From the NCBI GenBank assembly GCA_948567375.1, contig OX419761.1, positions 43,269 through 107,268 on the forward strand: DNA of 64,000 nucleotides. The letters are read 5' to 3'. The translations under genes and the position numbers were made by a program. The notes under the pieces were generated by a model, which was not told the origin of the DNA, did not search any database, and saw only the letters and a list, made by a program, of their open reading frames with translations. Within the stretch, counting starts at the first letter, position 1. Each line of letters starts with the position of its first letter. This document shows, in pieces, positions 12,499 through 41,379 of the stretch. The stretch comes from Lunularia cruciata (lineage: Eukaryota; Streptophyta; Marchantiopsida; Lunulariales; Lunulariaceae).

Positions 12499-12812
12499 TG
12501 TGGCACTTTAGACTTCATGTATGACTTATGTGTGAGTTGTGCTTTTAAAGTGTATGATTTTGATAGCAATGTAAATTATGTAGTGATATATATATATATG
12601 CATGACAACTAACACAACATTTGTAGCACCAAAGCTAGATATCTCAAATAGTGGAGTGGTAGTATTGGTAGTCATAGATGTTTTGGTAGTTACTCATGAA
12701 CTACTTGATAGAGGTCTAATTTTATGTTAGGACTATTGATCACATGGTGGGACCCACCATCACTTGCACCATTTGCATCATTGGATGTACCATTGTCGTG
12801 GGGATTATTTGG
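12499..12812 (+). repeat. M3 3' end: 109-bp repeat plus first part of the 3' LTR
   Basis: 12499-12607 (TGTGGCAC...CATGACA) is the repeat called A, which in M1 and M2 lies between the coding region and the 3' LTR. From about 12609 follows the first about 200 bp of the LTR block. It stops near GGATTATTT; the rest of the LTR is at 51565-51957. A short TA tract lies at 12585-12600. Confidence 0.7.
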
Positions 12813-19720: not shown

Positions 19721-19722
19721 AT

Positions 19723-21062
19723 TGTCGTTTGTATACACATCACTACACAACATACATCATTGTCAACATCATACACTATAGAAGCACAACTCACACATAA
19801 GTCATACATAGACTCTAAAGTGCCACAATTGCCCACCTAATTGGTGGTCAGGTCCCTCTAACCCAGATAGCCATCTACTCCAAGTATATGGTATACCTTA
19901 TAATGGGCAAAGATCAAGAGGTCGGGTGCTATGGAGCCCTATCATTAGTCGCCTATTTGCAATCTATACCATATAAAGAATGAACTAGCTGTAGGTCAAG
20001 TACATCTAGGACATAACTACTGTCCTTGAGGAACCACCATGAGGAGAAGAGTCATACATGCCATATGCCATCCTCTCAAACAGTTATCACACACTAACAT
20101 AATAGTAGCTCCACCAAAAGAGCCACATAACATACAACTCAAGCCTACACGTACAAGTGCCAAGCTTGAGTCCATACCATCAATGTTTGGGAGGTGGCAT
20201 GGTGCACAATTGTGCACATGATCCTTCCAAACAACACCATCATGTCTTTCTAACACAAGGACTCCAAATAGCAAAACCTTATGCACTTTCAAGATAGTGC
20301 GGCCTATCGAAACATCAAGTGTTGTTGGTGTTGTTTGCTATAGATATACATAGTCTTCTAGAAAAAATCGACGGATTGAGGGTCTATAACCTTCTCCTCA
20401 AATGGTAACATAGCATAAAGTATCTCTATGTTGAGCAATTGTCAAGTTCTCAAAGGCCATTAACATCACTCTCTAAAAGATCTCTGCCCGCTAAGAACAT
20501 GCACTCATCCATACATTGGGGTCATCCAAGTCCAAAACTATAGTAGCATCTTGACAAATGGCTGCAAGTTAGTTTGGATCTCATCCATAGAGTAGAAAGT
20601 ACGGAGAGAAGGATGCTAAGGAAGCTTGCCGGCTGAACCAATAGCCCATGGCCAACCAAGGTAACTAGAGATCCCAATCTCCTAAGTGGCCTCTTTGCAA
20701 ACCATACTTTTGCAATCCTCTCTTCACTGTTTGAACCACTCTCTGCTAAACCATTTGCCTCAAGGTGATCTTGGGATGTAGTACAATGATCAATCAAAGC
20801 CTTGTCACACAAGACCTGAAACTCCCCCAAGAACTCTGTACCCTGATCAGTCAAAACCTCAACTAGTGCACCAAAATGACTAAGAACTTGATCCAGGAAC
20901 AAGTAAGTTGTCCCTCCACTAGACTTGTCAGGAAGTGCCACCAACTTAATCCACTTGGAGAAGTGCTCCACCATCACCAAAACATACCGATGATGTCTCA
21001 CAATCAGCAATAAAGGTCTAGCAAAGTCCAAACTCCAACCGTAACCCAATCCCATCCCAATT
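19723..21062 (-). pseudogene. M2 remnant: A repeat, PHD finger and integrase core
   Basis: After the internal A repeat (19723-19828) the minus strand carries the PHD finger (about 19998-20135, one stop before the last Cys pair) and the integrase core (20522-21055), with the DFARP and TDQGTEF motifs. Unlike M1, the frame is intact across the first catalytic Asp and the following RHHRYV stretch. A small deletion after GLA throws the end of the core out of frame. The sequence jumps directly into the RT region at about 21062. Confidence 0.75.
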
Positions 21063-22636
21063 AGTAGGAGAATTCTTTAACCTAAATGGTAAGAACCTCC
21101 ACTAATATAACACATCCTTGCCATGAGGATCAATAGTCCAAAATGTTGTCTTGGACTTATCCTCCTCCCTGATTGGCAATTGATGATATCCTGCTCAAAG
21201 ATCCAAAGTGTTGAAGACCTTTGTATGCCCAATTGCATCAAAAATCTCCTTTGGTGTAGGCATGGCATACCAATCAGCCCTGGTCTATTGATTGATAGGA
21301 TGGTAATCTCCACACATCTGCCTATCTATGTAGTTGCCATGCATATCCTTCTTGTCTAGCATCACTCTCGCTGATGCATACTCTCCATGTGAAATCTCCA
21401 CCAAACAAGCCTCAAAAAGGTCACTACTCCGGCTCTAAATCAATGTCCTCTCCATATCACTATATTGATAAGGACATCGGAAAACCAGCGTATCATAGTC
21501 AACTCAATCCATATACCAGGTCCCTTCAGAGCACCCAAATCCTTTGAACTGAAGGCAAAACAACTCGTGTGGCTCCTCAAGAACCTCCAAACCCTCCGTC
21601 TTTCCTCTCTAGTAAGCTTGGGTCCAAGATCTGGCTTCCAAGTATCCTCTGTAATTGTAGTAGGAGTGAAAGACGTACTGAATGGCTGCTACACTGGGCC
21701 CTTGGGAGCAATAGTGTCATGCACCCAACCACTAGAGGTCCCAACCTCTAGTGGGACCTGAGAAAACCTCCTGAAAAACTCCCTCTACTCTGGCTGCAAG
21801 CTCCACATGTCCTCTAGCTGCATCCCATGTGGACCAAGGGTGGAATCCAAGTAGCCCATGCTCACTTGGATGAACTCCAAGTAGACCACTCTCCCTAGTA
21901 GCTACTGGCTATGTCCCAAGAATACCATGCCCACTTGGTCCATCACTCCCAGCATGTGCGTGAATCAAATCGATAGGCACAGGGCTCACAAGTGTCCGAG
22001 TGGTGATGCCTATCAAGCGCATCTTATGCTGCTCTGCCAAGCCAAGGCTCACAATCCATGTCAAAAAATTCAGGTCCATAGCCTGACCTAACACCTAACG
22101 CCTGGATGCCTTTGACACTACTAGAACAGCGGTAATACTGGTGCAAAAACCTATTGCTTGCTCTCTCTCATCAGCATTGGGCTCCACCAATTGCTATAAT
22201 TGTGAGTCCCAAACAAGTCCCGGTACTCCCTCTTGAAAAGCATGAGAGCGTGGGAAACTCATGAGTGTGGTAAATGCGGCTCTAGGCTGTCCAGCTAGGT
22301 TCACCACTACCATAGGTGACCTATCAACCACTACCACTGTCTGAGACTGACGCCCAACATCCAAGATATCATCAACAAGGATGTGGTCAAGTCGCTGAAT
22401 CCATCATAAGCACATTGTATGACCTCTTTGGGTAAGAGGTTTGTCCACTAAAGATGAAGACAATGAGCCTGTGATCCCACTCTGGCTACATCTAAAAACA
22501 CATTAGGTCCCATCCAAGAATGGACCTGATGTGTACTCGCTACCACTCTAGTGTGAGAATCACCCATCAAAGGAATGTTCTCCAAAAGGTAAGTTGGAGA
22601 AACAGATTGATGAACCTAGAGATGTCATAGTATCTG
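21063..22636 (-). pseudogene. M2 remnant: RT N-terminus, linker, DNMT C-terminus
   Basis: Minus strand, collinear with M1 28570-30120: RT up to the LPFG region, the linker with TAG at 21689-21691 followed by CAG CCA (identical context to M1), and the methyltransferase C-terminal motifs up to 22636. RT carries TGA after Asp-Leu, as in M1. A 1-nt deletion lies just upstream of RT, near 21495. It continues at 38128 after element G. Confidence 0.75.
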
Positions 22637-23025: not shown

Positions 23026-25259
23026 TATTCTCCCACTGCTAGTTGGTGACGTCCTTGTTGCTAGTGAAGCTTCAAATTTGTGGATGGTTGTTTGTGCATT
23101 CTGGAGGTGAGAAAGAGGTTCCCATGTGGCATCATGAAGAAGATACCCTTTCTAGAGGACCTTGTACTCCATATGTTGGCGACGGCCTTGTTGAATATGG
23201 CAACGCGCAAGGATACGATCAACTTTTTTCTCCTCATGATCATTGATAGGGACAAGAAGAGGGGGAGGTTGGACTCAAGAGGAAAAGGAAGAGGGGTTAG
23301 GAACAAAGGGTCTCAACTTGGAAACATGAAAGACATGATGGATACGCATGTGACAAGGCAAGGCAAGTCGATAAGCAACAAGAGAGACAATTTGGGTGAT
23401 ATCAAAGTGTCATATCCAATTAGGAGCAAGTTTACAAACTTGGGTATCAAGTGGGAGAGGGAGGTTACTAAAGGATAGCATGACTTTATCACCAGCTTCA
23501 AAGGTGAGATCATGACGGTAGTGGTCCGCATATTGTTTTTGGCAATCTTGAGCAACAAGGAGGTGAGACTTGGCTTGTTGGAGAGTTTGTGATATAGTGG
23601 TCAAGAATGTGGAAGTATGAGGAACCTGAGATTGAAGTGGAGCAAGAAGAGAATTTGGAACAAGCGGATCTTGGCCAAAATTGTGAAAGAAAGGAGAAAA
23701 TCCGGTGCTTGTCTGTTTGGAATTGTTGTAGGCAAATTCTACATCTCCAAGACATTCATCCCAATTGGTATAGTGAACATTGACAAAGGCATGCAACATA
23801 TCCTCCAATGTTCAATTTTCACATTTGGTTTGTCCATCAGTTTGAGGATGATAGGCCATGGACAAAGCAAGCTTGGTGCCAAGTATCTGGAAGAGTGCTT
23901 GCAAAAACTTCTTGGTAAATTGAGGATCACGGTTGGAGATGAGTACATGTGGCATCCCATGATGCTTGAAGACATTGTCAAAGTAGATTTATGCTAAGGT
24001 TGGAGTATTGACGGTATCATAGGTTGGTACCAAGTGGATTTTCTTACTAAGCTTATCTACAAACACCATGATTACGGTGTGTCCTAGTTTTGTCTTTGGC
24101 AAGGATGTGATGAGATCTAAGCTCACATGCTCCCAGTGAGCAGATGGAACAGCGAGTGGTTGAAGGAGTCCACTCGGCTTCTGAGTGTTGGCCTTGTTAC
24201 GTTGGCAACTCTGACACAATCGGACAAATTCTCAAACATCTTGTGTCATGTTGGGCCACCACTATTGACGTTAGAAGGTACCCAAGGTCTTGTCCACATC
24301 CATGTGACTAGTGATGGGTAAATCATGGGCTTCTTGAAGGCACACAAGTCGAAGATCACCTTTAGCTGGAATATAGATCTGGTCCTCATGGAATAAAAGG
24401 CCTTCCTTGATGGAGAAGGTGTTGTACTCCTTATTGCATGCTATAAGGCAACCATGTACCATTTGGAAGAAAGGATCTTGGTGTAGAGCTGATTGAAACT
24501 CGTTTTGGACCTTGGAGTCAACTGACACCGTTGAAATTGCCGTTGTGATGAGAGGAAGAGACTTCAAATCAGGTTGTCATCATAAAGCATTAGGGATGAC
24601 ATGGAACCGACCTGGTTTGTACTCAAGTTTGATGTCATACAGTTGGAGTTGTTCGTCCCATCAAGGATGTCGACTCTTCATGTGTTCCAAGTGTAAGGTC
24701 TGCAACAATGGTTTGTGATCAATTCGCATGATCACTTGTTTCTCTAAGAGATAATGCCTCCATACCTTGGTGGAGTATACCATTTCAAGTTGTTCTCAAT
24801 CTCAAGTAGAGTAGTTTCATTCAGCCATATTGAGTCGGCGAGCCATAAAGGCAATGAGATGGAGTTCATCTGGGAATTCTTGTTGCAGCACGGCTCCAAT
24901 TGCAAAGTGAGAAGCATCAAAATCAACCACACAAGGTAGTTGAGGATCATATAGTTGAAGAATGGGTCTTGAAGACACCATTATGCTTTAACTTCTAGAA
25001 TGCTTCTTCATGCTTCTTCATGCTTGGTGGTCCACTAGAAGCTCAAGTTCTTTCCCAAGAGGTCAATCAATGGTGCAACCACATGAGCATAATAATGGAT
25101 AAATCGTCAATAAAAACTGGCCAATCCATTGAATGCTATACTTTTGTAGCATCCTTTGGGGTAGGCAAATCAATAGTGGCCTTGATTTTCTCTTCTTCCA
25201 TCTTGATCCCCTCAGATGAGATCTTATGACCCAAGAAGGTAACCTCCTTCTGCCAAAAG
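23026..25259 (-). pseudogene. G pol 3' part: RNase H, integrase, chromodomain
   Basis: Minus strand from 25259: end of RT (FLGH), RNase H (about 24950-24600, FDAS and DHKPL-like), integrase zinc region (about 24400-24190, H...H...CxxC), integrase core with the LDLI, NRDPQF and GQTKCEN motifs carrying D, D and E (about 24150-23810), then a C-terminal chromodomain (about 23250-23085, VDRILARR-like start and ATWEPL near its end). Stops occur between segments. The chromodomain places G among chromoviruses, and it contrasts with the PHD finger at the same position in family M. Confidence 0.8.
25255..25259. other. M1 target-site duplication, left copy
   Basis: AAAAG, repeated at 35184-35188. If the element is taken to end in CA at 35184, the duplication is AAAG (4 bp), because one A is shared. 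Before insertion the site read ...GCCAAAAGGCAC... within the G RT gene. Confidence 0.85.
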
Positions 25260-25814
25260 TGTCGTGCGTATATACATCGCTACACAACATACATTGCTGT
25301 CAACATCATACACTATAAAAGCACAACTCACACATAAGTCATACATAGACTCTAAAGTGCCACAATAATCAGATTGCTTAACACTCTCAACTCAACTCAA
25401 CTCAGATCAGTACTTGATCTGTCACTCTATAAACTGCCAACAACTGGGCACTGATTATAGTCAAGCCACATCCACTCAAGCATAGAGAATCCAGGTGATG
25501 CTCGCCGGCCTCTATCCACCATAGCCAGGAACTCGAAGGCTCAACATCAGAGAAGTGAGCTCTCTGGAGCTCATTTCGAAACTATACCCACTGGACTCAA
25601 GCTAGCCCTGAAACCCTAACGGTCCTGCTGACAGCACACTCGACGGTGCAAACGGTGCAAAGTGACGGTGGGCCCCACCGTGAAGTCAGCACCCCGAACA
25701 CAAAATCTAACCGTCGGAAAGTAGTCCCTGAGAAACTGCTAGAATAACTCTAACTACCATCACTGGAACTCCAGTGTCCGAGCATCTAGATGCGGAACTA
25801 CAAATGGTGTGACA
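25260..25814 (-). repeat. M1 3' LTR
   Basis: 555 bp, TG...CA. On minus: the shared block (25814-25366) with TATA-like TTTATAG (plus 25426-25432), the GATCA...TGATC repeat, the ACGGT cluster and ACGGTGGG C CCCACCGT hairpin (about 25663-25680), then the A repeat (25365-25260) ending GCACGACA. The probable solo LTR at 60343-60875 has this same block-plus-A structure. Confidence 0.85.
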
Positions 25815-25816
25815 GC

Positions 25817-25921
25817 TGTCGTGCGTATATACATTGCTACACAACATACATCGCTGTCAACATCATACACTATAAAAGCACAACTCACACATAAGTCATA
25901 CATAGACTCTAAAGTGCCACA
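25817..25921 (-). repeat. Extra A repeat upstream of the M1 3' LTR
   Basis: About 105 bp, nearly identical to 25260-25365, lying between the coding region and the 3' LTR and separated from the LTR by GC. The same arrangement exists in M2 (19723-19828) and M3 (12499-12607). Confidence 0.85.
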
Positions 25922-25922
25922 A

Positions 25923-25933
25923 TCGCCCCCCTA
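25923..25933 (-). promoter_or_regulatory. Polypurine-tract candidate of M1
   Basis: Minus strand TAGGGGGGCGA, immediately followed by TTGTGGCAC at the start of the extra A repeat. This is where a PPT is expected if the LTR began with A. No purine tract precedes the TGTCAC terminus at 25814. Confidence 0.5.
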
Positions 25934-26090
25934 GCTGGCGGTTAGGTCCCTCTAACTCCAGATAGCCATCTACTCTAAGTATATGGTATACCCTCTAATG
26001 GGCAAAGATCAGGAGGCCGGGTGCTATGGAGCCCCATCGTTAGTCGCCGGTCTGCAATCTATACCATATAAAGAATGAACTAGCTATAGG

Positions 26091-27101
26091 TCAAGTACAT
26101 CTAGGACATAACCACTGTCCCTGAGGAACCACTGTGAGGGGAGGAGTCATACATGCCATATGCCATCCTCTCGAACAGCTATCACACACTAACATAGTAG
26201 CAGCTCCACCAGAAGAGCCACATAACATACACCTCAAGCCTGCACGTACAAGTGCCAAGCTTGGGTCCATAGTACCATCAATGTTTGGAAGGTGGCATGG
26301 CGCACAATTGCGCACATGATCCTTCCAAACAACACCATCACGTCCTTCTAACACAAGGACTCCAGATGGCAAAACCTCACGCACTCTCAAGATAGTGCGG
26401 CCCGTAGAAACATCAAGTGTCGTCGGTGCTGTCTGCTGTAGATATACATAGTCGCCTGGATAAAATTGACGGATCGAGGGTCTATAACCTCCTCCTTGAA
26501 TGGTAGCATAGCGTAAAGTATCTCTATGCTGAGCAATCGCCAAGTTCTCAAAGGCCATCGGCATCACTCTCCGAAAGATCTCTGCCCGCTGAGAACATGC
26601 GCTCATCCATACATCAGGGTCATCCAAGTCCAAAACTATAGTAGCATCTCGACGAATGGCTGCAGGTAAATCTGGATCTTGTCCATAGAGTAGGAAGTAT
26701 GGAGAGAAGGATGCTAAGGAGGCTTGCCGGCTGAACCGATAGCCCATGGCCAACCAAGGTAACTGGAGATCCCAATCTCCCAAGTGGCCTCTCTGCAAAC
26801 CATACTTTTGCAATCCTCTCTTCACCGTCTGAACCACTCTCTTTGCTAAGCCATCTGCCTCAGGGTGATCTCGGGATGTAGTACGATGATCAATCAAAGC
26901 CTTGTCACACAAGACCTGAAACTCTCCCAAGAACTCTGTACCCTGATCAGTCAAAACCTCAGCTGGTGCACCAAAATGACTAAGAACTCGATCCAGGAAC
27001 GAGTAAGCTATCCCTTCACTAGACTTGTCAGGAAGTGCCACCAACTCAATCCACTTGGAGAAGTGCTCCACCATCACCAAAACATACCGATGATGTCTCA
27101 C
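26091..27101 (-). CDS. M1 integrase catalytic core with C-terminal PHD finger
   Basis: Open for 336 codons. It starts inside the integrase core (RHHRYVLVMVEHFSKW) because a 1-nt change near 27100 separates it from the upstream pol frame; M2 and M3 are in frame here. The second catalytic Asp lies in TDQGTEF (about 26931-26950). The third acidic position reads GLAK (Lys codon 26841-26843) instead of the usual Glu. A C-terminal integrase region follows (GDYVYLQQT; then VWKDHVRNC). The last 46 residues (26094-26231) form a canonical PHD finger: C-x2-C-x11-C-x2-C-x4-H-x2-C-x14-C-x2-C with a Trp two residues before the last Cys pair. PHD fingers usually read histone H3 tails, so a role in target-site choice is likely but inferred. 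Confidence 0.85.
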   Translation of the reverse strand: MRHHRYVLVMVEHFSKWIELVALPDKSSEGIAYSFLDRVLSHFGAPAEVLTDQGTEFLGEFQVLCDKALIDHRTTSRDHPEADGLAKRVVQTVKRGLQKYGLQRGHLGDWDLQLPWLAMGYRFSRQASLASFSPYFLLYGQDPDLPAAIRRDATIVLDLDDPDVWMSACSQRAEIFRRVMPMAFENLAIAQHRDTLRYATIQGGGYRPSIRQFYPGDYVYLQQTAPTTLDVSTGRTILRVREVLPSGVLVLEGRDGVVWKDHVRNCAPCHLPNIDGTMDPSLALVRAGLRCMLCGSSGGAATMLVCDSCSRGWHMACMTPPLTVVPQGQWLCPRCT

Positions 27102-29208
27102 AGTCTCTCAGCGGTAAAGGTCCGGCAAAGTCCAAACTCCAACGGTAACCCAATCCCATGATAGGTAATGGGTGTAACTGTGGCGTAGGAGCATTGAATG
27201 ATGCTCTAACTTGGTCACAAACCATACATCTGGCAACAAACTGCTGTACCTCGGTCTGCATACCGCGCCACCAATAATGACTCTGAAGTAAGCTATATGT
27301 ACGCTTTACTCCAAAATGTCCTAGCTCCTCATGAGCATGACGGACCAACTGTGGTCTCTGTGATGGAAGTGGTACTACTTGCACTCTACCATCCTCCCAT
27401 ACACGCAAAAGGTGTCTACCCTCCAATCTGAACCGTCTGGCTCGTTGAAGAACACGGTCTCTCTCCTTGGCCCCAACTGTCCCACCCACAACACCAGTGC
27501 GAAGATAGTCTATCACTAAGACATCATCATGAATGTCTCGCTGAACTGTATCAATATCTTCACTCTTTGGATCTGTGACCTCAATAACTCCTCCTGTATG
27601 CGCTGAGAGAGATACCACCAAAGTCTCTGCAAATATACACAGAAAGGCCGATGCATGCCAACCTGGCACCATCTCCTCATCTGTCTCACCATGCCAACGT
27701 GCTCCGGTCTGATCCTGCTGGCTGGGACATGGGTTTCTACTCAACCCATCTGCATCACGGTTCACCACTCCAGGTCTGTGAACAACCGTGAAATCATACT
27801 CCTGTAAAATCAGAGCCCATCGTGCAAGCTTCCCTGAAAGCTTGTCGGACTCCATCAACCACTTCAGCGGCTGATGATCAGTGATGAGAGTGAAGGGGTT
27901 ACCAAATAGGTAACATCGGAAATGTGCTACTGCCCAAACTGCTGCCAAGCACTCTCCCTCATATGAACTATACTTCGCCTCCGCTGAATTGTTGGAGCGA
28001 CTAGCATAGGCCACCACAAACTCCTTCTCCTCATCATCATGTTGGGTGAGCACCGCTCCAAGCCCCAACATACTCCAATTAGTGTGAACCTGAAATGGTC
28101 GTCCCTTGATCGGTCTCCTCAAAATAGGAGCCGATGTCAACCTCTCCTTGAGCTCTACAAAAGCTCTCTCCTGCTCATCTCCCCAACACCACTCCTGTGT
28201 AAGCTTGGTCAGCTTCGTCAAGGCCTTGGCAATGGCACTAAATCCTCTAACATAGCGGCAATAGAAGTTCGCCAACCCAAGGAATGCTCGCACTCTGCTC
28301 ACATCCGTAGGCCGAGGAATACGTGCAATAGCCTCCACCTTGGTCTGCTGGACACCAAGTCCTCCAGGGTAGATAGTGTGACCCAAATACTCAACCTGCT
28401 CGTGGAAGAACCTACACTTCCCAGGATGTAGTTTGAGTCCATGAGATCTCAACCTCTCAAACACTTCCAACAACTGTCTCTCATGCTTGTCCACAGTAGT
28501 GCTATAAACCAAAATGTCATCAATATAGCACCGAGCAAAATCCAATCCAGCTAGGATCCTATCCATGACCCTCTGGAACTCAGCAGGAGCGTTCTTTAAC
28601 CCAAATGGTAAGAACTTCCACTGATATAACACATCCTTGCCGTGAGGATCAAAAGCCCAAAAGGTTGTCTTGGACTTATCCTCCTCCCTGATCGGCAACT
28701 AATGATATCCCGCTCAAAGATCCAAAGTACTGAAGACCTTTGCATGCCCAATCGCATCAAAAATCTCCCCCGGTGTAGGCATGGCATACCGATCAGCCCT
28801 GGTCTGTCGGTTGATAGGACGGTAATCTCCACACATCCGCCTATCTGTATAGTTGCCATGCATATCCTTCTTGGCTGGCATCACTGTCGCTGATGCATAC
28901 TCTCCATGTGAAATCTCCACCAAACCAGCCTCAAAAAGGTCACTACTCCGGCTCTGAATCAATGTCCTCTCCATATCACTATATTGATAAGGACGTCAGA
29001 AAACAGGTGTGTCGCTAGTCAGCTCAATCCGTATACCAGGTCCCTTCAGAGCACCCAAATCCTTCATACTGAAGGCAAAACAACTCGTGTGACTCCTCAA
29101 GAACCTCCAAACCCTCCGTCTTTCTTCTCCAGTAAGCTTGGGTCCAAGATCTGGCTCCCAAGTATCCTCTGTAACCGTAGTAGGAGTAGAAGACGTACTG
29201 ACTGGCTG
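27046..29208 (-). CDS. M1 RT, RNase H and integrase zinc-binding region
   Basis: One frame downstream of the UAG at 29209. It includes a linker, the RT N-terminal fingers (28974-28717) and RT palm with YIDD at about 28513-28526, RNase H (about 28110-27730, DHQPLKWL and ADGLSR), and the integrase zinc region (27340-27200, H...H...CxxC). Breaks: TGA 28996-28998 (M2 has CGA), TGA 28714-28716 (stop also in M2 and M3), TAG just after it in a YHQ motif (M2 has CAA), and the shift near 27100. The first RNase H acidic residue reads Asn (AAT 28078-28080) in an HTNWS motif; M3 also has Asn. The longest open stretch is 27046-28698. Confidence 0.85.
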
Positions 29209-29211
29209 CTA
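29203..29211 (-). promoter_or_regulatory. Candidate readthrough stop UAG-CAG-CCA between DNMT and RT
   Basis: The minus strand reads TAG CAG CCA in frame with both the upstream gag-protease-methyltransferase frame and the downstream RT frame. This fits the CAR-YYA 3' context of tobamovirus-type UAG readthrough. M2 has the same nine bases (21683-21691) and M3 keeps TAG CAG (7354-7359). Unlike the other stops in M1, it is present in all three copies. Confidence 0.55.
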
Positions 29212-29529
29212 CACTGGGCCCTTGGGAGCAATAGTGTCATGCTCTTGACCACTAGAGGTCCCAACCTCCGTGTGAAAAACTCCCTCCACTCTGGCTGCAA
29301 GCTCCACACGTCCTCTAGCTGCATCCCATGTGGACCAAGGGTGTAGCCCACGCTCACCTGGATGGACTCCAAGTAGACCACTCTCCCTAGTAGCTACTGG
29401 ATGTGTCCCAAGAATACCATGTCCACTCGGTCCATCGCCCCCAGCATGTGCCTGAATTGTCTCGATAGGCACAGGGCTCACAAGTGTCCGAGTGGTGATG
29501 CCTATCAAGCGCATCCTATGCTGCTCTGC

Positions 29530-30520
29530 CAAACCAAGGCTCACAATCCAGGTCAAACAGTTCATGTCCATAGCCTGACCTAACACCTGACGCCTGGATG
29601 CCTCTGACACTACTGGAACAGCGGTAATACCGGTGCAAAAACCCATCGCCCGCTCTCTCTCATCAGCATTGGGCTCCACCAACTACTGTAATTGTGAGTC
29701 CCAAACAAGTCCAGGTCCTCCCTCTCGAAAAGCATGAGAGCCTAGGAAACTCATGTGTGTGGGAAATGCAGCTCTAGGCTGTCCAACTAGGTTCACCACT
29801 GCCATAGATGACCTATCAGCCACTACCATTGTCTGAGATTGACGTCCAGCATCCAAGATATCATCAATAAGAATGTGGTCTAGTCGCTGAATCCCATCAT
29901 AACTATGCTGTAGAACCTCTTTGGGTAAGAGGTTCGTCCACCAAAGACGAAGACGATGAGCCCGTGATCCCACTCTGGCTGCATCTAACAATACAGCAGG
30001 TCCCATCCAAGAATGGACCTGATGTGTACTCACCACCACTCTAGTGCGAGAATCACCCATCAAAGGAACGTTCTCCAAAAGGTAAGCTGGAGAAACAGAC
30101 TGATGAACCTGGAGATGTCGTAATATCCATAACATCTCCCAAAACACACCAGAACGAGGATCCTAAAGACCCAAACCACGGCCCGCACGTGTATGTCCCT
30201 GACATGGCCATCCAGAAATCACCAAGTGAATACGCCCATGTCTCTCTAGGTCATGCGTCCCCAGTAAGGAAATGTCTCCTGGTAAGGCCTTCTGGTAACC
30301 TTTGACTGCTGACATTGGTAATAACTCCGGATACCGATAGGCCAAGTGTGCCACATGATGTAGAAAGACTCGCCTAGCAGTCTCATCTCTCTCTACATAC
30401 AAGTACCTCTGTACTCGGATACCCGCCTGTAACACCACAGCTAGTCCGGTGCTGATCCCACCAAACAACTCCAATAGACATATCCCCTCTACTGGATACT
30501 GCCAAGCAATGAGTGTGGTA
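29530..30520 (-). CDS. DNMT3-like C5-cytosine DNA methyltransferase domain of M1
   Basis: A complete methyltransferase domain of about 325 residues inside the polyprotein, between protease and RT. Motif I is LELFGGISTGL (near 30460-30490). Motif IV has SGWPCQGH with the catalytic Cys at 30202-30204. Motif VI is LLENVP (near 30065-30080). Motif VIII has AHRLRLWW (near 29955). Motif IX/X has ERERAMGF and RRQVLGQAM (29661-29560). Order and spacing follow DNMT3, not the permuted plant DRM order; the phrase around ENVPLMG and the AHR-R-WW-N motif are especially DNMT3-like. TAG codons interrupt it at 30163-30165 (also in M2; CAA in M3) and 29683-29685 (M1 only). It would transfer methyl groups to cytosine in DNA; acting on its own cDNA or on host chromatin is inference. 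Confidence 0.88.
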
Positions 30521-32691
30521 TCCAAAGGTGTCAAAGCAATTGCCTTTGGAGGCTCATCCTCACACTCATCCCCTGATGGTACGAAGGCTCCACTCCAAGC
30601 CTGCTGCACCAACTGATCTGCATGCTGCTGCAATGCCTCCTCTGAACTCCACAATGGAACATCCAAGGTGGATGGAACAATCCCACTCGTACTCCATAGC
30701 CGAGTGATCTCCTCTGGTACTCGAGTATCCTCTGCATGGGCGTTCCCCTCCAACAAGTGACCAGGCCAAGTAACTGCACCGCTGAAAGCCAAAACTGATG
30801 CTGCCATGGTCCCGGACTGTAGTGAGCCAAGACTGCCACTACTGAAACGTATTGGTAGGCGACATACCCGTCCCTCACCAGACTGCCAACCAGGTCTATA
30901 AGAGGTTGTCTCCTCCCAATAGTCAATACTGAAACCCATGGGGTATAACACTGCTCCCCCAACTAGCACATCATATGACTCAGCTATCGTCGCAAAAGCC
31001 TGAGCTCTCACCACCGAGCTATCAGTCGGATGACCAGGCTGAACCTGGACAACAAGCTCCCCACGTGTGATGTACTGTGTCGAACCACCACCTAGAGATG
31101 TCTGGATCTGAAATAGACACCTCTCCACATTGGTCTTCCGTAACTCCAGACCAACAACTGCAGCCTTCCCCAACATAAGGGGCTGCGCACCAGAGTCTAA
31201 CAAGACTCTCTGTGGTGTATAGACCTTCCCTAAAGGTCCCACTAAACGAAAGATCCCCCTTTGGTTATCCAATAGGACAACACCAAGTGTAAACCGTGCT
31301 CTCTCAAAGGCCGGTCTAGCTAGCAACTCCTCCAGTCTAGCCGCTGCTGCCTGCCATAAACCACTGGTCGCTGAACGGATCCCATGCTCCTCAATCAAGT
31401 CAGATCCACTACCAACCACCTCTGCTCTAGTAGTAGGAACTGCACCATCCCTACTCTCACACAACGTGGCAGCCAATCGGAACACTGGGGCTGGGTCAAC
31501 TCCCAATGTAAACATGTCACTGGCTGAAAATAAAGGATGCCGCATAATCAGCTGAGCCGCCCCCAACATCATGCTAGACTCAGTCTGTGTAGTAGCAGGT
31601 GGCTGACTAGTAGGTACTCCATCAGGTACTCCATCACCACCTACCACACCTGCACTCGGATGTCTAGGAACCATGGATGTCGTCTGCAATGCCTCAGATA
31701 GCGTGAAAGACTGGGGAAGTCTGACCTGTCTCCCAACCTCTCCTCTCTGTGGGTCCAACTCCACTGATGCTCCTCTAGGCTCTGGAGCACGTACTGCACT
31801 CCTAGTCACTACTGCAGATGCATCCACCTGTGCTGCTCCGCACATGAAATCCAAAGCATCTCTATCACCAGCATATGAGGTGGAAGCCTCAGCACCCGAA
31901 TCTGATCTCCTCTGAGCAATAGCCATACTAGCCAATATCTGCTCCAACTGCTCAATCCGAGTAGCCATAGCTGTGTCAGAAGTAAGGGCAGGTACTGCAC
32001 CCCTACTAGGTGTAGATCCTCTACCACCACCTCTACCACCTCGTCCTCCATGAACTGGAGCTCCTCTACTACCTGCCATAGCAGCCCTACCACTCCATAA
32101 CTCCGGGTGTAGGTCAAAACACCGGTCACTAGTGTGACCAAATCTGTGGCAATGCTCACACTGCCTCTGTGCTGGCTGTGATGCACCAGAGGTATCAGGT
32201 CCGCTGCCCTGAGTACACTCTCTCCTATGGTGAGGTCCACCACAAGTCCAACAAGCAACACCACCACTCACTGGCTGCTGCTGACCCAAAAATGAGGGTA
32301 AGGGTCTAACTCCACTAGGCCCTCCACTCGCTCCATAGGATCTGGGCGGTCCACCCTGTCCTCGAAAACCAACTGGGCGTGGTGCACTCTGCTGCACTCT
32401 AGAAGAAGTCACAACCGTGGATGAGGTCTCTCTACCAAATCCAGCTGTCACCACTCTCTCCTCCACCATGTTGAGCTCAATACGCTCAGCCAAACCAAAG
32501 ACTACTGCCAAAGTGGGCGAAGTAGCCTGCAACAACGTAGCATCACGAACTCTATGTCGCAACTCCTTGTCCAGTATCCCATACCAAAACTGGACTGCCT
32601 GGGCCTCAGTTACTCCCTGAGTAAAACTGATCAGCCGCCTCATGCGAGTATATGCCTCGCGTAGGCTCTCTCCAGCCTTCCACTGGAACTC
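30521..32691 (-). CDS. M1 gag C-terminus (zinc knuckles) and aspartic protease
   Basis: The frame is open from 32691 to the stop at 30163. It begins in the gag capsid region (RMRRLISFTQGVTEAQ), followed by two zinc knuckles: a near-canonical C-x2-C-x3-H-x4-C (about 32218-32256, CWTCGG) and a canonical C-x2-C-x4-H-x4-C (32119-32160, CEHCHRFGH). A Ser/Gly-rich linker follows, then a retropepsin-type protease with LLDSGAQPLML (Asp codon 31195-31197), where DSGA stands for the usual DTGA/DSGA. After the protease come about 200 residues without recognised motifs before the methyltransferase. Gag packages element RNA; the protease cuts the polyprotein. Confidence 0.85.
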
Positions 32692-33432
32692 CTACAAGCT
32701 CCTCAGCTTGTCAATCCGCATTACCTGGTAGTTCTGCCTCAAACATAGGAAGAACTCAACCATGGGGTTAAACCCCGGTACCACACCACCTCTTGCAGCG
32801 GTACCTCCACTCGTAGTAGCACTATCTCCAGCTAGTGCACCTCCACTAGCTCCACCAACACTACTCGAGCTAGAACTCGTAGGTACAGCCGATCTACTCC
32901 TGGCCACCGAGCTTGAAGTGATGGAGATATAGTGTGGAGACCAATATTGTCTCCATAACTCAATCTCCTCCAAATGAGCTCTCCTGAACTCATGGTAGTC
33001 GTCCATTGGTGTACCCTCCAAGTGCTGAAACAACCCCTTCCATGCCATGAAGGGTGTGAACAAAGTCGAGTTCCGCATCTGCTGTAGATCATACCAACTA
33101 TCGAACTCCTGGATGAAGTCATCCAACTCAATGGTACCCACTGTACCAGAGTAACGCTTAGGGCCTTTGGAGGCCCCATAAATCTCGTCCATGTCCCACA
33201 ATAACGGTGCGGACACACCAAGTGCACTCTCAACTAAATCAGCTCCTGTGTCGAACTTCAACTCAGAGTCAATCTCCTCCCTCACTGGGACCTGAGATAC
33301 AGGCTGATACCAAGCACCACTCCGAGTAAACCCACTGCGTACTGCAGGGCTAACTCCTTTGGAATCTCCAAAGAACTCCGTCGTGACCACATAACTGCAA
33401 CAGCAAACCCGAACCACCAACTGCAACCACAA
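32692..33432 (-). CDS. M1 gag N-terminal part
   Basis: Same frame as the downstream part, separated by TAG 32692-32694 where M2 has CAA (an M1-specific nonsense change). The start is uncertain: the frame begins at 33432 with TTG, and no ATG precedes the conserved EFFGDS motif. At 33379-33384 M1 has ACG ACG where M2 has ATG ATG and M4 has ATG ATA. Because M2 and M4 are CpG-decayed, ACG may be ancestral. The sequence includes a Trp-rich capsid-like segment (DDFIQEFDSWYDL; WKGLFQHLEG) and a Ser-rich stretch. Confidence 0.75.
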   Translation of the reverse strand: MWLQLVVRVCCCSYVVTTEFFGDSKGVSPAVRSGFTRSGAWYQPVSQVPVREEIDSELKFDTGADLVESALGVSAPLLWDMDEIYGASKGPKRYSGTVGTIELDDFIQEFDSWYDLQQMRNSTLFTPFMAWKGLFQHLEGTPMDDYHEFRRAHLEEIELWRQYWSPHYISITSSSVARSRSAVPTSSSSSSVGGASGGALAGDSATTSGGTAARGGVVPGFNPMVEFFLCLRQNYQVMRIDKLRSL

Positions 33433-33783
33433 GTCGCAACCGCAAGTGCCCCACCAAGTGCCAACACCAACTAGACACCACCCACTAATGTAACTCTAAC
33501 CAAGATAACTATACTAGGGGAAAAGCAACCTGTAACCTGCCATCATAACACGCACTCTCACGGTCTACAGGTCATCACTTCCTGCCTCACCGGAGAGAAA
33601 CAAAGGTAGTCTGACTGGTCATCACTCCAGCCTCACCACCGAGAGCACACCAGAGCACCAACGCTCAAAAGTCAGGGCACCTCACACAAACGTGGTGCAC
33701 AAACAGGAAGCAGAGAATGGAGGGGATCCAATCACAAGAAATCTAAACGAAAACCCTCCATCTCATAACACAACACGGGACTG

Positions 33784-33795
33784 ACTCTGCCACCA
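33784..33795 (-). promoter_or_regulatory. Primer-binding site of M1
   Basis: Minus TGGTGGCAGAGT, one to eleven bases after the end of the 5' LTR-like region, depending on whether the LTR ends at TGCCA or TGTCA. It is similar to the initiator-Met PBS used intact by element G at 37739-37750. Confidence 0.65.
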
Positions 33796-35184
33796 TTTGG
33801 CATTTGACATAAGAGTAGTTCGTATCTAAGTCCTAAGCTACCAGGATCACCAAGAATAGGATCAAACTGCCTCTCCTAGCCAAAGCTACATGTGTATAGA
33901 TAATAGTGGCACAGTCACTATGACAACAGGTGAGGGTGGACCAGTTGGCTAGGGCATCAGTCTAGGAACAAGAGATCTAGGAGTCAAACCCTGTTGCGCA
34001 CAATCTAGCAAGAAAGGCAGATTTTGCCAACCAATGACCAACATCTACACTAAACTAGCTAGCCTCACGCCAGCAAGCTGGCTTGCTGGCTCTTTTGGCC
34101 CTTCTAGGCCTTCGTAGCCTCTCATAGCCCACAGCCCTATGCCTCGAAACGCCGAAATTCAGCCAAATGAGGCCTTTCTTGTTGCCACTTCGAACCTCCT
34201 CCAAAATTGGCAAAACTTCTCCAAATCTGCGAAACTCCTCCAAACTAGCAAAACTTCTCCAAATCTGGCCAAACAGTGAAACTCCTCCAATTCTGGCCCA
34301 AAATCTGACATAAATCTGACGTAAAATCTGACATAAACCCTAAAGATTGATGTCCGCCAAATCCCCCGCTAACTTTCCACTCGAGCCAAATTGACAAAAC
34401 GGGTTTTTCCAAATCACAATTTCATGAGAAGAGCTTTCCAACTCCACCTTCAATTTCACTTTCTGAACCCAACTCGTAGCAAATTGGTCCTGCCTTCACC
34501 TCCTGAGCTCAAAATCACAACACTGCTCAAAAATTGCTCCTTCTTTGCTCAAAATTTGGCCAGCGCTTCCGCACACCGTCCGCCTAACTGCCAAATTTGC
34601 ATCAACTACATGAGCTTCTGCACACTAGGGAAACACAGAACCTGAATCGAGCTACCACGATCCACCGAGCTTGGAGATACCACCAACACTCAACGTTCTT
34701 GCACCCGATTTCCCCCTGACTTCACTTCTCTGATGTAATCAGATTGCTTAACACTCTCAACTCAAATCAACTCAGATCAGTACTTGATCTGTCACTCTAT
34801 AAACTGCCAACAACTGGGCACTGATTACAGTCAAGCAACACCCACTCAAGCATAGAGAATCCAGGTGACGCTCGTCGGCCTCTGTCCACCATAGCCAGGA
34901 ACTCGAAGGCTCAACATCAGAGAAGTGAGCTCTCTGGAGCTCACTTCGAAACTATACCCCCTGGACTCAAGCTAGCCCTGAAACCCTTATGGTCCCGCTG
35001 ACAGCACACTCGATGGTGCAAACGGTGCAACGTGACGGTGGGCCACACCGTGAAGTCAGCACCCCGAACACGAAATCTAACCGTCGGAAAGTAGTCCCTG
35101 AGAAACTGCTAGAATAACTCTAACTACCATCACTGGAACTCTAGTGTCCGAGCATCTAGATGCGGAACTACAAATGGCGTGACA
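33796..35184 (-). repeat. M1 5' LTR-like region
   Basis: About 1.39 kb. On minus it starts TGTCACGCC with the shared block (35184-34736) carrying TATA-like TTTATAG (plus 34796-34802), GATCA...TGATC and the ACGGT cluster. It then continues for about 940 bp not found in the 3' LTR. That part contains a plus-strand tRNA-like A box (about 33943-33957) and B box (about 33980-33992), and an inverted repeat around GCCAGCAAGCTGGC (34070-34084). Confidence 0.8.
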
Positions 35185-36060
35185 AAAGGCACACTTCAAC
35201 TTCTTGCAGTAAAATTTCCATTGTCGTAGTTGTCTTAGGACATCTTGCACATGATTCATGTGTTCTGCCTCTATCTTACTATAAATTAAGATATCATCCA
35301 AGAACACCACCACAGACCAATCCAATATTCCATCCGACACTCAATGCATATGATCCATGAAGACAGCCATAGCATTAGTGAGTGTGAAAGGTAGAACTCT
35401 CCACTCAAAATGCCCATACCTTGTACAAAAGGTAGTATTTTGCACATCCTCTCTATCAATAGGAATTTGCCAAAAGCCAATGCAAAGATCCAACTTGGAA
35501 AAGTAGCATGATCCACTTAGTTGATCAAGCAAGTCATCGATCCGAGGCAAGGGATATGCATTCTTCACGGTTTGCTTATTAAGCCCATGGTAATCAATAC
35601 AAAAACAAAGTCCTCCATCCTTCTTTGGAACAAATAGTACCGGTGCTCCCCAAGGAGAGGTACTATGTTGTATGAAGTCCTTCTCCAACAACTCTGTAAG
35701 TGTTGTTCGCAAGTCCTCCAACTCCTTTGGTGAGAGCCAATAGATCTGTCTGCTCACTGAAGTACTCCCTGGCAATAACTTGATCTTGAAGGGCATACCT
35801 TGATCAAAGGGTAATCTCTTTGGCAGATCATCCAGAAACACGTCTGCAAACTCCTGAACTATCCCATCAACCATTGCTTGAGGCTCTTGACCCTCCTCCA
35901 ATTGCTCTTGTGCAATCAGCTTGATCCACACAGCAAATATAGACTTATCTTCCTCCAAAGCTTGCTCTATGGTTGCTTTACTAACCAACTTCCCTTTTAA
36001 GGACTCATCTCTCTTCCAAGCTTGCTCCATGGTTGCCTTCTTGGCAAACTTCCCATCTTG
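35185..36060 (-). pseudogene. G reverse transcriptase, N-terminal part
   Basis: Open from 36030 to 35341 (229 codons), then TGA and a further open piece to the M1 insertion at 35184. It carries the protease-RT linker, the RT entry region ([15 protein letters not shown]), [13 protein letters not shown], the thumb-side FWQIPI, and the catalytic FLDDILIYS (about 35280). It ends in KCAF; the next residues WQKEVTFLGH lie at 25259 and below. Reverse transcribes element RNA in the particle when intact. Confidence 0.85.
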
Positions 36061-38127: not shown

Positions 38128-38277
38128 ATCCGTAACATCTCTCAAAACACACCAGAACAAGGATCCTAGAGACCCAAACCTCTACCAGCTTGTGTATGTC
38201 CCTAACATGGCCATCCAAAAATCACCAAGTGAATAGGCCTATGTCTTTCCAGATCATGCACCCCCAGTAAGGAAATA
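38128..38277 (-). pseudogene. M2 remnant: DNMT motif IV segment
   Basis: 150 bp between G and CC5, collinear with M1 30120-30273. It contains the methyltransferase GWPC motif followed by TAG for Gln (about 38199), and TAG at 38166-38168 in the same place as TAG 30163-30165 of M1. Confidence 0.8.
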
Positions 38278-38662
38278 TGTGGTGCCCACAAATTTTGTTT
38301 TTCTCAAAGTAAAGAAGAAGAAGTGTATAGAGAAGTCGGATTGTGCCTGTATGGCCGAAGAAGGCGAAGAAAAAAGTCTTCGGGATGAAACCCAAAGTAA
38401 AGTGACTTCGGGTCATAAGGCAAAGTACTCGGAAATGCCCTGTCAGCATACAATACAAAGTAAACTGTCTTCGGATTGGGGGGAGCTCAACCCAAGGCAA
38501 AGACAGTCAAACAACCTTTTGTCGGGGCAAGAAATTCAAGAAGGGGCCGTTTCAAAACTGGCGGCTCATACGCGCGAAGGTTGATTGATAGTGACAGGTG
38601 CATGCCGGAGGTGTGATTTCTTGGTAGAAACTTGAAGTAATGGAAGACAAAGAAGTGCAACT

Positions 38663-38670
38663 CTATAAAA
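38663..38670 (+). promoter_or_regulatory. TATA-like box before the CC5 gene
   Basis: CTATAAAA is 20 bp upstream of the ATG at 38691; the same box and distance occur in CC4 (about 47932-47939). If it is a core promoter, transcription would begin at or just past that ATG, so the next in-frame ATG (about 38829) could be the real start. Confidence 0.45.
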
Positions 38671-38690
38671 ATCAAAACTGCAACGACAAA

Positions 38691-41264
38691 ATGTCGAGCA
38701 ATTTTCCTTTGCCATTGAGGAGTCGTCTTGCAGGTGATCGGGGAAAGGGAAATAGAGTTGGACTCGTGTTAGTGCGCAAGGGAGAAGTCGCAAGAGAGAA
38801 ATCGAGAGACAATGAGAAAGCCAAAGAGATGGGAAGAGGGAAGAAGAACTCCAAATTTGCAGTGAGAAATCATGTAATTCGGAGATTAGATGTAGTAGCA
38901 AGGATCAAAGTCTTGAGCCGACTTCGGATCACCTTTCTGGCATGGAACTGGAACGTAAGTTTTCTAGGATTCATGACAGAAATCATCGAGAGTAAGTGTC
39001 TTGATGGTCCCGAGGAAGAAGGGAAGAGAGGAAATCCGGCTTGCTGGACAGAGTCGGATTGGAGACTTGTACTCGGGAAGGAGGCGGGCTCAGAGCAGGG
39101 AGCCACGTTCTTGGGGAAGGGAGAGATAGCCCAAGAAACGCAGGAGGTGAGAGATGCCTTCTCGTCAAACAGAACGAAGAATGGGTACAAGGTAGAAAGT
39201 TACAAAGACCCTGTCAAGAGAGGAATTGTGATTGCTTTGATGGCAATCCTAAAGCCGGAGAGAACAACATATGTGATGAAACACCAAGCGGTGTTCTTTC
39301 ACAAATTGTTTGCAGGAGAACCAATTAATTGGGCGAGGTGTTTTCATGGGAGAACGAGGTAGATGGTGTGGAATTTGTGGGATAAGTCACCTCCACATTA
39401 CATTGTGTCGTTTGCGGCGCATTTCTACCTCGGGCTCAATTTGCTGACCTTGGCAGAGCGAAATCGGATGGTGTTGCACTTCCATCCGGATGTGCAAAAG
39501 GAAGTCGATATCGAGGAGCAGCAATACATTCTCCAAATCCGGAGCATGGACGACTACTACGCAAAGACAGGGAAAAACATGGAGGTCGTAGTAAGTACCC
39601 CGACGAAGAAGAGAACTTGGCAAGCAGAAGCCGAAGAAAACAAGAAACCTTGGAAGATGCAGAAAAATAACCCAAGGCGAGGAATGGTGGTGATTGAGTC
39701 AGAAGATGAAGACTCAGAAGGCGAGGCCGAGCTCAAGACGGAGGACTTGGAACATGAGGAGGAACCTGAACTGACACTACAAAGTGGAGATACGAGCAGT
39801 GACAGTGAAGATGGTGGAGAAATGACCTCGGCGCCAGCGGCTGAAGAATACGAAAAAGAAGTGCAAGCCGAAGTAGAAGCCAAAGACAATGCGGCGCTGG
39901 AAGACAAAGTACCGGTGCCCGAGGAGAAGAAGATCGCAATACAGCAAGGAGTTCGCTCGAGAGGTAAGGTGAAGTGTGAGGCGGGGCTGAGTAGAGTGAA
40001 GGAAGAGGTCAAAGGAAGCTCAGGCAGTGAGGCATCAATCCCGATACAAAGACTTCAGAGAAGAAGGCGTGTATCAGGAGAACACGAGGAGAAGAGAGAG
40101 ACCACTCCGTAGGAGGAAGAAGTTGCCAGTGATGGAGTGGAGTACCTACGAGAGGTAGTGTGCCCGCTGTTGGTGAAGTTGGAGCAAAAGAAGAAGGAGA
40201 TGCAGTCGACTTGTCCAAAGGTAAAGACTGTATTGCAGGTAGTAGCAAGATTAGAAGAGGAGAACTCGGAGTTGAAGAGGAGTATAACCCGAGGTGAGGA
40301 GGAGAGAGAAGTACTGCGAGCAAAAGTAGTAGAGAGAAGTCAGGTAATCAAAGACCTGAAGAGAGAAGTGAGCTATCAAGAGGATCTTGCAAGGAAGAGT
40401 GACATCGCAAGGGAGAGACAGGTAGCAGAGCACAAAATCTTGAAGCAGCAGTTTGTTGATTCAAGAGTAGAGCTTATCCATGCTATGGCGAGGGTAGCAT
40501 CAAAGGATCAAGAGCTCGATCAAGTGATGGAGAGTATGGAGGAGAAGAAGCAACTCTGGCAAAGAGAGTTGGCTGCGCGATCTAGAGAAGAAGAGAGATT
40601 ACGAGAGTTACTTTGTAATCAGGAAGAGAAAGTTGTACAAAAGGAGAAAGAGAAGGAAGCCGTGAAAGCCGAGTTCGAAGAAGAGCTAGCGATGTACCAA
40701 GAGGAATGGTTTGCAGATTGTGAACAAGAATGGAAGACAAGATTGGAGCCATTGAAGGAGATAGTCCTCAAGGTGAACGCAATGTTAAGTACAGAAGCCA
40801 ACGTTCAAATTGAAGAAGCGCGACTGCACGAGTTGAAGTTGTTGGTGCAGGAGACGAGGCGAAGACAAGCAAAGGACACGGAGATGAATGCCTTGTTAAT
40901 AAAATTAAGAACTCGTGTAGATAGGAAGGTTTTGGAGGTAGAGGATAACATTTCAATTAGATTAGACTTAGTGAAAGTAGAGCTAGAAAAGCTTTGGAAA
41001 GCTGTTAAAGCAAAACCCGAAGTAGATAATATAGGAGTCCAAATGTCTTCAGAGTTACCATCAGAGACCTTAGAGAAAAGTGGGTTGGGAGATAAGGAGT
41101 TAGATAGATTACCCACTAGTGAAATTTTAGATCAGGAAAGAGAATTGCTGGATCTGGTAGAAGAAGTAGAAGATCTGAAACCCGAGGACAAAGTAGTAGA
41201 AAGTAAGATTACTTTGGGTTTGGGTTTGAAAGCCAAAGAAGAAGTAGACATCGGATCGGAGTAA
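38691..41264 (+). CDS. CC5 coiled-coil protein, about 857 codons
   Basis: One frame with two TAG stops: 39360-39362 (CC4 has CAG) and about 40110-40112 (CC1 has CAG). Residues 1-60 are basic. Residues about 60-290 form a globular domain with FLAWNWN, WTESDWRLVLG, GYKVESYKDP, TTYVMKHQAVFFHKLFAG and PPHYIV motifs. Its layout recalls the 'putative plant transposon protein' domain of uncharacterised plant ORFs, but I cannot confirm this. Residues about 300-470 are acidic (EDEDSEGE). Residues about 480-770 are a long coiled coil with regular heptads. The tail ends in DIGSE. Possible roles such as oligomer or particle formation are guesses. Confidence 0.75.
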
Positions 41265-41379
41265 TAACCAATTTGAGATTTGAAGAGGCAAATATGAAGA
41301 AGTGCATTGTCATTTTGGATCTGCAGGTTAGAACAGTTGTTGTAGAACGGTATAGTTGTTAGAATTCTTGATTGATTCA

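Follow-up and report, generated by a model that had tools for sequence, protein, structure and literature searches.

A DNMT3-type methyltransferase carried by a Ty3/gypsy retroelement with split repeats, probably in a bryophyte genome

Retrotransposons that carry a DNA methyltransferase (MTase) have been described before, and the closest described system is KnitGypsy-Dnmt3 of the charophyte alga Klebsormidium nitens, which has DIRS-like repeats and is under purifying selection (de Mendoza et al. 2018, PMC5890265; this paper and the others below are cited for excerpts, not for their whole texts). The dinoflagellate elements SymbioDIRS-Dnmt3 and SymbioLINE-Dnmt are likewise retrotransposon-borne, but have DIRS or LINE machinery, and in the excerpts no relationship between them and Gypsy elements is stated. 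Two SymbioDIRS-Dnmt3 enzymes methylated CG de novo in a yeast assay, and SymbioLINE-Dnmt gave no methylation there (PMC5890265). Here we describe element C, an integrated gypsy-type retroelement with an MTase, together with further copies of its family (A, B, D, E and F), in a stretch of 64,000 nucleotides (nt) of contig OX419761.1, assembly GCA_948567375.1, deposited as Lunularia cruciata. This whole stretch is referred to as the window. An earlier note on it had named a precedent from charophytes, and KnitGypsy-Dnmt3 is indeed such a precedent.

Like KnitGypsy-Dnmt3, element C has an intronless, non-rearranged Dnmt3 in a Gypsy polyprotein open reading frame (ORF) under purifying selection, and it combines Gypsy domains with repeats as in a DIRS retrotransposon (PMC5890265, the latter point in the legend of its Fig. 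4). As far as the published description permits comparison, KnitGypsy-Dnmt3 belongs to an alga and has the enzyme in its Pol polyprotein ORF, whereas here the host is a land plant and the enzyme stands before a UAG that ends the ORF of gag and the aspartic protease (PR). The integrase of our element bears a PHD finger; none is mentioned in the main text of PMC5890265. Target-site duplications (TSDs) of 4 bp and a palindromic repeat joint are documented here, and KnitGypsy-Dnmt3 is compared in this respect by its description alone. The kind of element has a precedent; new are the land-plant occurrence, the position of the enzyme ahead of a stop of readthrough type, the PHD finger on the integrase, and ends that are permuted yet bordered by 4-bp duplications.

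Land plants are said to have no transposon methylases in the excerpts of Morozov et al. (2019, PMC6338049), a statement that the bryophyte copies described here contradict. A 2025 survey (PMC12344493) mentions retrotransposon DNMT3s in its excerpts, referring to the 2018 report. Our literature search, with most subscription journals outside its coverage, returned no recognised report of DNMT elements in bryophytes or other land plants, and a search on PHD integrases brought up nothing of use. The words methyltransferase and DNMT are absent from the main texts of two liverwort genome papers (PMC9985172, PMC12885004).

The element and its enzyme

The coding regions of element C follow the order gag, PR, MTase, UAG, reverse transcriptase (RT), RNase H, integrase, PHD finger (Table 1), in which PR, RT, RNase H and integrase stand in the gypsy-type order that marks Ty3/gypsy elements. 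Positions 27049-28698 match the Pfam families RVT_1 (E 2e-23), RT_RNaseH (E 7.8e-36) and Integrase_H2C2 (E 3.9e-18); the gag region of copy C has no Pfam match. When element C is removed together with one target-site copy, an uninterrupted RT frame of the host gypsy element is restored. We regard element C as an integrated, partly decayed Ty3/gypsy copy, probably in a bryophyte genome and of a family active until recently. Its target is the RT of another, diverged gypsy element (23647-25259 and 35185-36030, minus strand).

The earlier note had placed MTase motifs I, IV, VI, VIII and IX/X, in this order and within a single frame, after a DSGA protease and ahead of a YIDD RT. They are all found there, on the minus strand, in linear (non-permuted) order, unlike in the permuted DRM. 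The note had also called the enzyme complete. All motifs are present, but the frame is not open, as two in-frame TAG codons (30163-30165 and 29683-29685) interrupt the MTase of copy C. The domain does lie between PR and RT, but the detail differs from what had been proposed, since it is the last part of the gag-protease ORF, which a conserved UAG closes. In 9 of 18 other genomic copies measured the MTase is stop-free, and the remaining 9 have at least one stop.

The Pfam check proposed in the earlier note fared differently for copy C and for its relatives, since copy C's own MTase pieces have no match at E ≤ 1 but relatives carry PF00145. Searched against the PDB, one of two copy C pieces gave a weak DNMT3A match (E 0.007) and the other no methyltransferase match. 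The window MTase domain, with X at both stops and a threshold of E ≤ 0.01, matched 183 proteins, the best at E 7.9e-164, and PF00145 is present in at least 70 of the best 120 of these by hand count. One relative, P0001, matches PF00145 at E 6e-11 and DNMT3A in the PDB at E 6e-12. Its AlphaFold2 model, made with a 34-sequence alignment, has a mean predicted local distance difference score (pLDDT) of 88.9 and a predicted template-modelling score (pTM) of 0.88, and each of the 50 PDB matches that Foldseek lists for this model is a DNMT3 structure (best E 4.9e-18). When a profile was built from 34 relatives, it scored 83 bits with DNMT3A, compared with 43 for DRM, 30 for M.HhaI and 24 for DNMT2, and neither DNMT1 nor CMT chains reached E ≤ 0.01; based on these profile scores, an origin from DRM, CMT, MET1 or DNMT2 is rejected. 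The catalytic cysteine is retained in 101 of 104 near-full MTase domains from all sources, the glutamate of motif VI in 102 and the arginine of motif VIII in 100. Relatives scanned for ADD and PWWP gave no match. By sequence, predicted fold and catalytic motifs the element enzyme is of the DNMT3 type, as the earlier note had held, and de novo methylation is its predicted activity.

What is preserved of copies A, B, D and E follows the order of copy C, which agrees with the collinearity claimed before: PR-MTase-RT-integrase in A, MTase-RT-integrase in B and gag-PR-MTase in D. This comparison is based on pieces other than RT0 and INT1, which were in a wrong frame (10 and 7 X) and were excluded from the substitution ratios given below. 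The frame after the MTase has the same Pol start as copy C in 17 of 20 genomic stretches, which were chosen from 123 scored matches, all stop-free in the matched part, and are thus biased to well-kept copies and recent shared ancestry. Collinear copies, the empty site and the common Pol start support the view that the MTase belongs to the gypsy element and is no separate host insert. A host gene fragment inserted in a single copy is rejected, since the MTase is collinear in A, B, C and D and the Pol start follows in those 17 stretches.

The matches of the PHD finger among solved structures include CHD4, KMT2, KDM5, PHF21A and the plant ATXR5. Many of these PHD proteins read unmodified H3 tails. 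Chromoviruses are Ty3/gypsy elements with a chromodomain on the integrase. Our element resembles them in having a module of a histone-reading type at the integrase C-terminus and differs in having a PHD finger in place of the chromodomain, for which the integrase C-terminus of copy C has no Pfam match.

The conserved stop codon and the split repeats

In the 20 genomic stretches, the UAG is at the same codon in 17, followed by CAGCCA in 16 and by CAGUCA in one; the other three have an earlier stop (two) or, by the rule used, no stop (one). The conserved UAG stands after the METHYLTRANSFERASE, and the context in copy B is that of copy C (CAG CCA). The same design is seen in L001, a 9285-nt contig from a soil-crust relative that holds the entire coding region of a gypsy element of this lineage, with an MTase identity of about 50%. 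Here UAG CAA UCA closes the first ORF (gag-PR-MTase), and the RT-RNase H-integrase-PHD frame is open after it. UAG-CAR-YYA is a readthrough consensus of plant viruses (PMC3542737, excerpt). If the UAG is leaky as in those viruses, the MTase would be in every gag product, and Pol in a fraction of them.

The ends of element C are not two identical long terminal repeats (LTRs), but A1 and B2. Repeat A1 stands at the 5' end and B1-A2-B2 at the 3' end; copy B shares this 3' arrangement, but its flanks are different. Nine of ten further genomic copies have B1-A2-B2, with the GC spacer read in eight of those, although the A2 of copy 64/65 has just 86% identity to A. Of the 5' stretches fetched for the ten, seven contain A1. 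The element termini, TGTCAC ... CACGACA, vary by few substitutions among copies. A 4-bp TSD is present in six of the seven genomic copies with both ends (ACTC, CATA, GAGG, ACTT, AACC, TCTT), and in a control none of 42 mismatched end pairings matches. A purine-rich tract lies directly before B1 in the seven copies compared. The 15-mer joint recurs in L001, which is far diverged in other respects, and there too a purine tract precedes it, at a distance of roughly 110 nt. The overall structure is A1...B1-GC-A2-B2, a set of split direct repeats bordered by 4-bp target duplications. In copy C, A1 and A2 are different at 18 of 449 positions, and in five other copies at 9/449, 3/449 (copy 60/61), 12/449, 3/440 aligned (copy 68/69) and 11/449; as these differences are few (down to 3/449 and 3/440), the family was active recently. 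The 15-mer CACGACAGCTGTCAC also matches 24 viral contigs, which we take as chance, because neither the MTase nor the Pol scan of IMG/VR found a viral relative there.

How could such ends arise? The A2-B2 junction is without the GC that is present at B1-A2, as closure of a circle would give. We propose that reverse transcription would use B-GC-A as the LTR, with the purine tract before B1, and that two LTRs would meet in a circle or concatemer. The DDE integrase would then cut the internal palindrome CA-GC-TG, after CA on both strands, instead of the LTR ends, with loss of the GC; such a cut would yield exactly A-int-B-GC-A-B. A circle-junction route of integration was once proposed for retroviruses and later given up.

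A live alternative, although in our opinion less likely than not, is that the split repeats come from reverse transcription itself, which would make permuted linear DNA in the manner of DIRS, or that a helper recombinase inserts circles. Indeed, the repeat order A1...B1-A2-B2 is that of the tyrosine-recombinase elements Ngaro, PAT and VIPER (PMC6681497, excerpt). However, our element differs from these and from DIRS by its rve integrase, its PHD finger and its 4-bp TSDs, and no tyrosine recombinase match was found in element C or in the relatives scanned. The purine tract before B1 is, moreover, placed as it would be before a U3. To our knowledge, DIRS and Ngaro elements leave no target-site duplication, and insertion by a recombinase would leave none.

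Relatives, selection and proposed action

Named matches to the window MTase come from Calypogeia, Sphagnum, Marchantia and Riccia, with 48-69% identity (among the best 120 of 183), a further search for relatives adds Closterium to Calypogeia and Marchantia, and one with the PHD finger in the query adds Haematococcus and Volvox (among the best 120 of 386). No vascular plant is among the named matches listed in these sets, in which most matches are without an organism name. In Marchantia polymorpha, copies are annotated as genes (e.g. Mp_4g09160). An MTase tree of 63 rows (84 near-full domains less 22 fragmentary or redundant ones, plus one bacterial row) groups the window enzyme with those of Marchantia and Calypogeia in a clade of 11 rows (100/100). 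The land-plant affinity suggested earlier is borne out by this clade and by the named bryophyte relatives, and a bryophyte host fits. L001 had been binned as Synechococcales; a cyanobacterial origin is rejected, as the contig carries a whole gypsy coding region. P0030 and P0158 also bear names of bacterial metagenome-assembled genomes, and all three are probably misbinned eukaryote DNA.

The PHD finger is present in 117 of the best 120 of the 386 matches to the query that includes it, and in at least 45 of these 120 the chain also contains an MTase, which immediately precedes the integrase in 43 (type II) and lies before the RT in two (type Ib). RNase H is seen ahead of the MTase in 20 of the 43 type II proteins. 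In the MTase tree the type II rows make up a single clade that also holds P0081 and P0095 (100/96); in an integrase tree of 73 of the 133 usable rows, with type II rows drawn at random, 32 type II rows fall in one clade with four unlabelled rows (89/99). Since type II is one clade in both trees, MTase and integrase have travelled together since the two positions arose. With regard to origin, the sequences fit one capture followed by relocation as well as two captures of related enzymes. P0161, P0164 and P0165 make up a separate group of the gag-PR-MTase type on a long stem (100/100).

Host enzymes were also found in the window's assembly (565.8 Mb), where a first look with PF00145 yielded 2161 candidates; scoring produced 123 matches, host genes included. 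The host exon L026 matches DNMT3 at E 3e-16, L027 is a DRM (E 2e-103), and L028 has its match (E 3e-36) in 4fsx/4ft2, plant chains of the CMT type that belong to a maize chromomethylase. L029 looks similar to L026 on inspection, and the two are grouped in the tree (98/92), but its own PDB matches are weak and bacterial. The element enzyme is like the DNMT3s of land plants and animals (PMC6453930, excerpt) in predicted fold and in motif order, and has a PCQ in common with L026. It differs in that it is only about 30% identical to this host exon, and in that the relatives scanned are without ADD or PWWP. In a tree based on 141 columns, the DNMT3-like exons and the DRM of the host are separated from the enzymes of the elements (95/87). 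Recent capture from this host is rejected, given this identity and the grouping of L026 with the host DRM.

Our favoured joint reading, for which we would put the chances at about even, is that a packaged gag-level MTase methylates the cDNA of the element, a PHD finger steers it, and the DDE integrase inserts permuted copies derived from circles. Because the MTase lies before a presumably leaky stop, it would be made at the gag level and packaged in the particle. It may methylate new cDNA during or after reverse transcription, probably at CG, as the dinoflagellate DIRS enzymes do in yeast. The cDNA would then arrive bearing the mark of the host already, and the PHD finger of the integrase would steer it to chromatin with unmethylated H3K4.

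Several observations weigh against this reading. The UAG context of copy A is UAG CAG GCU, and neither the type II relatives nor type Ib proteins (e.g. P0149, P0170, P0183) have such a stop. No RNA structure 3' of the UAG is common to both elements (z -3.4 in L001, +1.1 in the window), so that readthrough is argued from the hexamer by itself. One of the ten further copies has a single B in the fetched 3' stretch, and one of the seven pairs of ends shows no TSD. The sequence after A1 contains no convincing tRNA primer site: it matches an initiator-Met primer site only in part, with TGG missing. Rfam and tRNA scans gave nothing informative. KnitGypsy-Dnmt3 produced no de novo methylation in yeast, a result that its authors call inconclusive, since human DNMT3B failed too (PMC5890265); no Klebsormidium-named record is among the matches listed, many of which are without an organism name. 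With regard to selection, the neutral mark for the MTase is about 0.79 rather than 1, and stops in it are at the neutral level (15 observed, 16.4 expected).

Alternatively, the MTase could act in trans, with host chromatin or older copies rather than the cDNA as its target, and thereby damp the family or shield the host. The PHD finger resembles readers of the unmodified H3 tail, in analogy to the ADD domain of DNMT3. Differences among copies are mainly G>A and C>T (198 of 285), as methylated DNA would give, and the authors of the Symbiodinium work raise benefit to the host as an option (PMC5890265, excerpt). Nevertheless, the PHD finger is on the integrase part and does not adjoin the MTase, and ordinary methylation by the host explains the transitions as well. 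We consider action in trans rather unlikely.

A further possibility is that the MTase is a passenger, captured long ago and expressed with gag to no benefit of the element. The stops at neutral rate, the inconclusive inactivity of the Klebsormidium enzyme and a Volvox relative (P0214) without the motif IV cysteine would all suit it. The codons tell otherwise. The ratio of nonsynonymous to synonymous polymorphism (pN/pS) in the MTase of 17 equal-length genomic copies is 0.36 (pairwise mean 0.40), and it is 0.79 (0.62-1.01) when the same kinds of mutation are placed randomly. The corresponding substitution ratio (dN/dS) of the MTase of copy C is 0.54 (0.39-0.72) against A, 0.56 (0.33-0.97, an interval that includes the neutral mark) against B and 0.31 (0.17-0.57) against D. 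For other regions of copy C it is 0.55 against A and 0.79 against B, the latter with a very wide interval (RT-RNase H), 0.49 against D and 0.47 against E (gag), and 0.82 against A and 0.63 against B (integrase-PHD). The MTase codons are under purifying selection. As stops accrue at the neutral rate and half of the 18 copies have one, single copies decay freely after insertion, and selection is visible only in their shared history. The catalytic cysteine persists in deeply diverged lineages, and the MTase is kept in two different polyprotein positions. Hence we think it improbable that the enzyme is a passenger. As to P0214 (Volvox reticuliferus), its MTase stands before the integrase, and some lineages may keep the domain without catalysis.

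That the MTase methylates RNA, or shields nucleic acid in the particle from a host nuclease or deaminase, was raised for the dinoflagellate elements (PMC5890265, excerpt), but is very improbable here, as the nearest relatives are DNMT3s, which methylate DNA, and DNMT2 scores far below them.

We would go further only as speculation, since it seems to us a long shot that in green plants, from volvocine algae to bryophytes, an old, largely unrecognised gypsy lineage exists as self-contained epigenetic agents, with a gag-level DNMT3 acting on its own cDNA, a PHD integrase directed to H3K4-unmethylated chromatin, and permuted copies made from a circle-junction palindrome. If this were so, bryophyte genomes would receive many pre-methylated insertions from an enzyme outside their control. 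Irrespective of this, transposon-borne DNA methyltransferases are placed in land plants, with relatives in many sequence sources and not in one alga, and element copies should be looked for wherever DNMT genes of bryophytes and algae have been counted. Marchantia polymorpha, with its annotated copies, is a tractable laboratory plant in which it is directly testable whether an element writes its own epigenetic state. The permuted ends with target duplications also pose a concrete question about substrate recognition by DDE integrases.

Features of the window and minor observations

Table 1. Positions of element C, its parts and the other copies in the window
Feature	Position	Strand	Remarks
Element C, integrated gypsy-type retroelement bearing the MTase	25260..35184	-	split repeats; restored target RT frame
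TSD, left	25256..25259	.	AAAG (5-bp reading AAAAG possible)
TSD, right	35185..35188	.	
Repeat A1, 5' end of element	34736..35184	-	449 nt; starts TGTCAC; 96% identical to A2
gag region	31900..33432	-	in-frame stop in copy C; two CCHC-like knuckles, 32253-32215 and 32160-32119
Aspartic protease region	30643..31299	-	DSGAQPL 31203-31177; relatives match Asp_protease_2 weakly
DNMT3-type C5 MTase domain, motifs I, IV, VI, VIII, IX/X	29530..30520	-	relatives, DNMT3A matches, structure model, motif map
Motif I, LLELFGGISTGL	30477-30442	-	
Motif IV, GWPCQG	within 30222-30181	-	
Motif VI, ENV	within 30084-30061	-	
Motif VIII, AHRLRLWW	within 29973-29938	-	
Motifs IX/X	29667-29566	-	
UAG closing the gag-PR-MTase ORF	29209..29211	-	followed by CAG CCA (readthrough-type context)
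RT, RNase H, integrase zinc-binding region	27049..29208	-	YIDD 28530-28504; further stops in copy C
Integrase core (rve) and C-terminal part	26240..27101	-	rve E 5.7e-11; frame differs from copy C RT
PHD finger, integrase C-terminus	26094..26231	-	PF00628 E 2.3e-11
Repeat B1	25817..25923	-	107 nt; preceded by purine tract AGGGGGGCG (candidate polypurine tract)
Palindromic B1/A2 joint, GACA-GC-TGTC	25811..25820	.	surrounding 15-mer CACGACAGCTGTCAC also in L001
Repeat A2	25366..25814	-	
Repeat B2, 3' end of element	25260..25366	-	ends CACGACA; 98% identical to B1
Copy A	1865..12777	+	PR-MTase 1865-3189; RT and integrase 7046-12327; ends in A2
Copy B	19175..22633	-	MTase from just before motif VI to integrase-PHD; B1-A2-B2; spacer AT
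Copy D	38169..46882	-	A1, gag, PR, MTase part 1; insert 38277-42059
Copy E	61643..63587	-	gag fragment, more diverged

Copy A is interrupted by an insert at 3190-7045 and by a second one at about 8817-10707. The former and the insert of copy D, each about 3.8 kb, belong to one other family and end TGTGACAACCCGG...; their long ORFs, when scanned, matched no Pfam family above the cut-off. At 993-1866, the 5' end of copy F, two A repeats stand in direct tandem with no B between them.

Observed/expected CpG amounts to 0.35 for the whole window and to 0.47 for element C; together with the excess of G>A and C>T, this is as expected of heavily methylated repeats. The joint of copy B (19717-19726) reads GACA-AT-TGTC, as if both cytosines of the CHG sites in CAGCTG had been deaminated.

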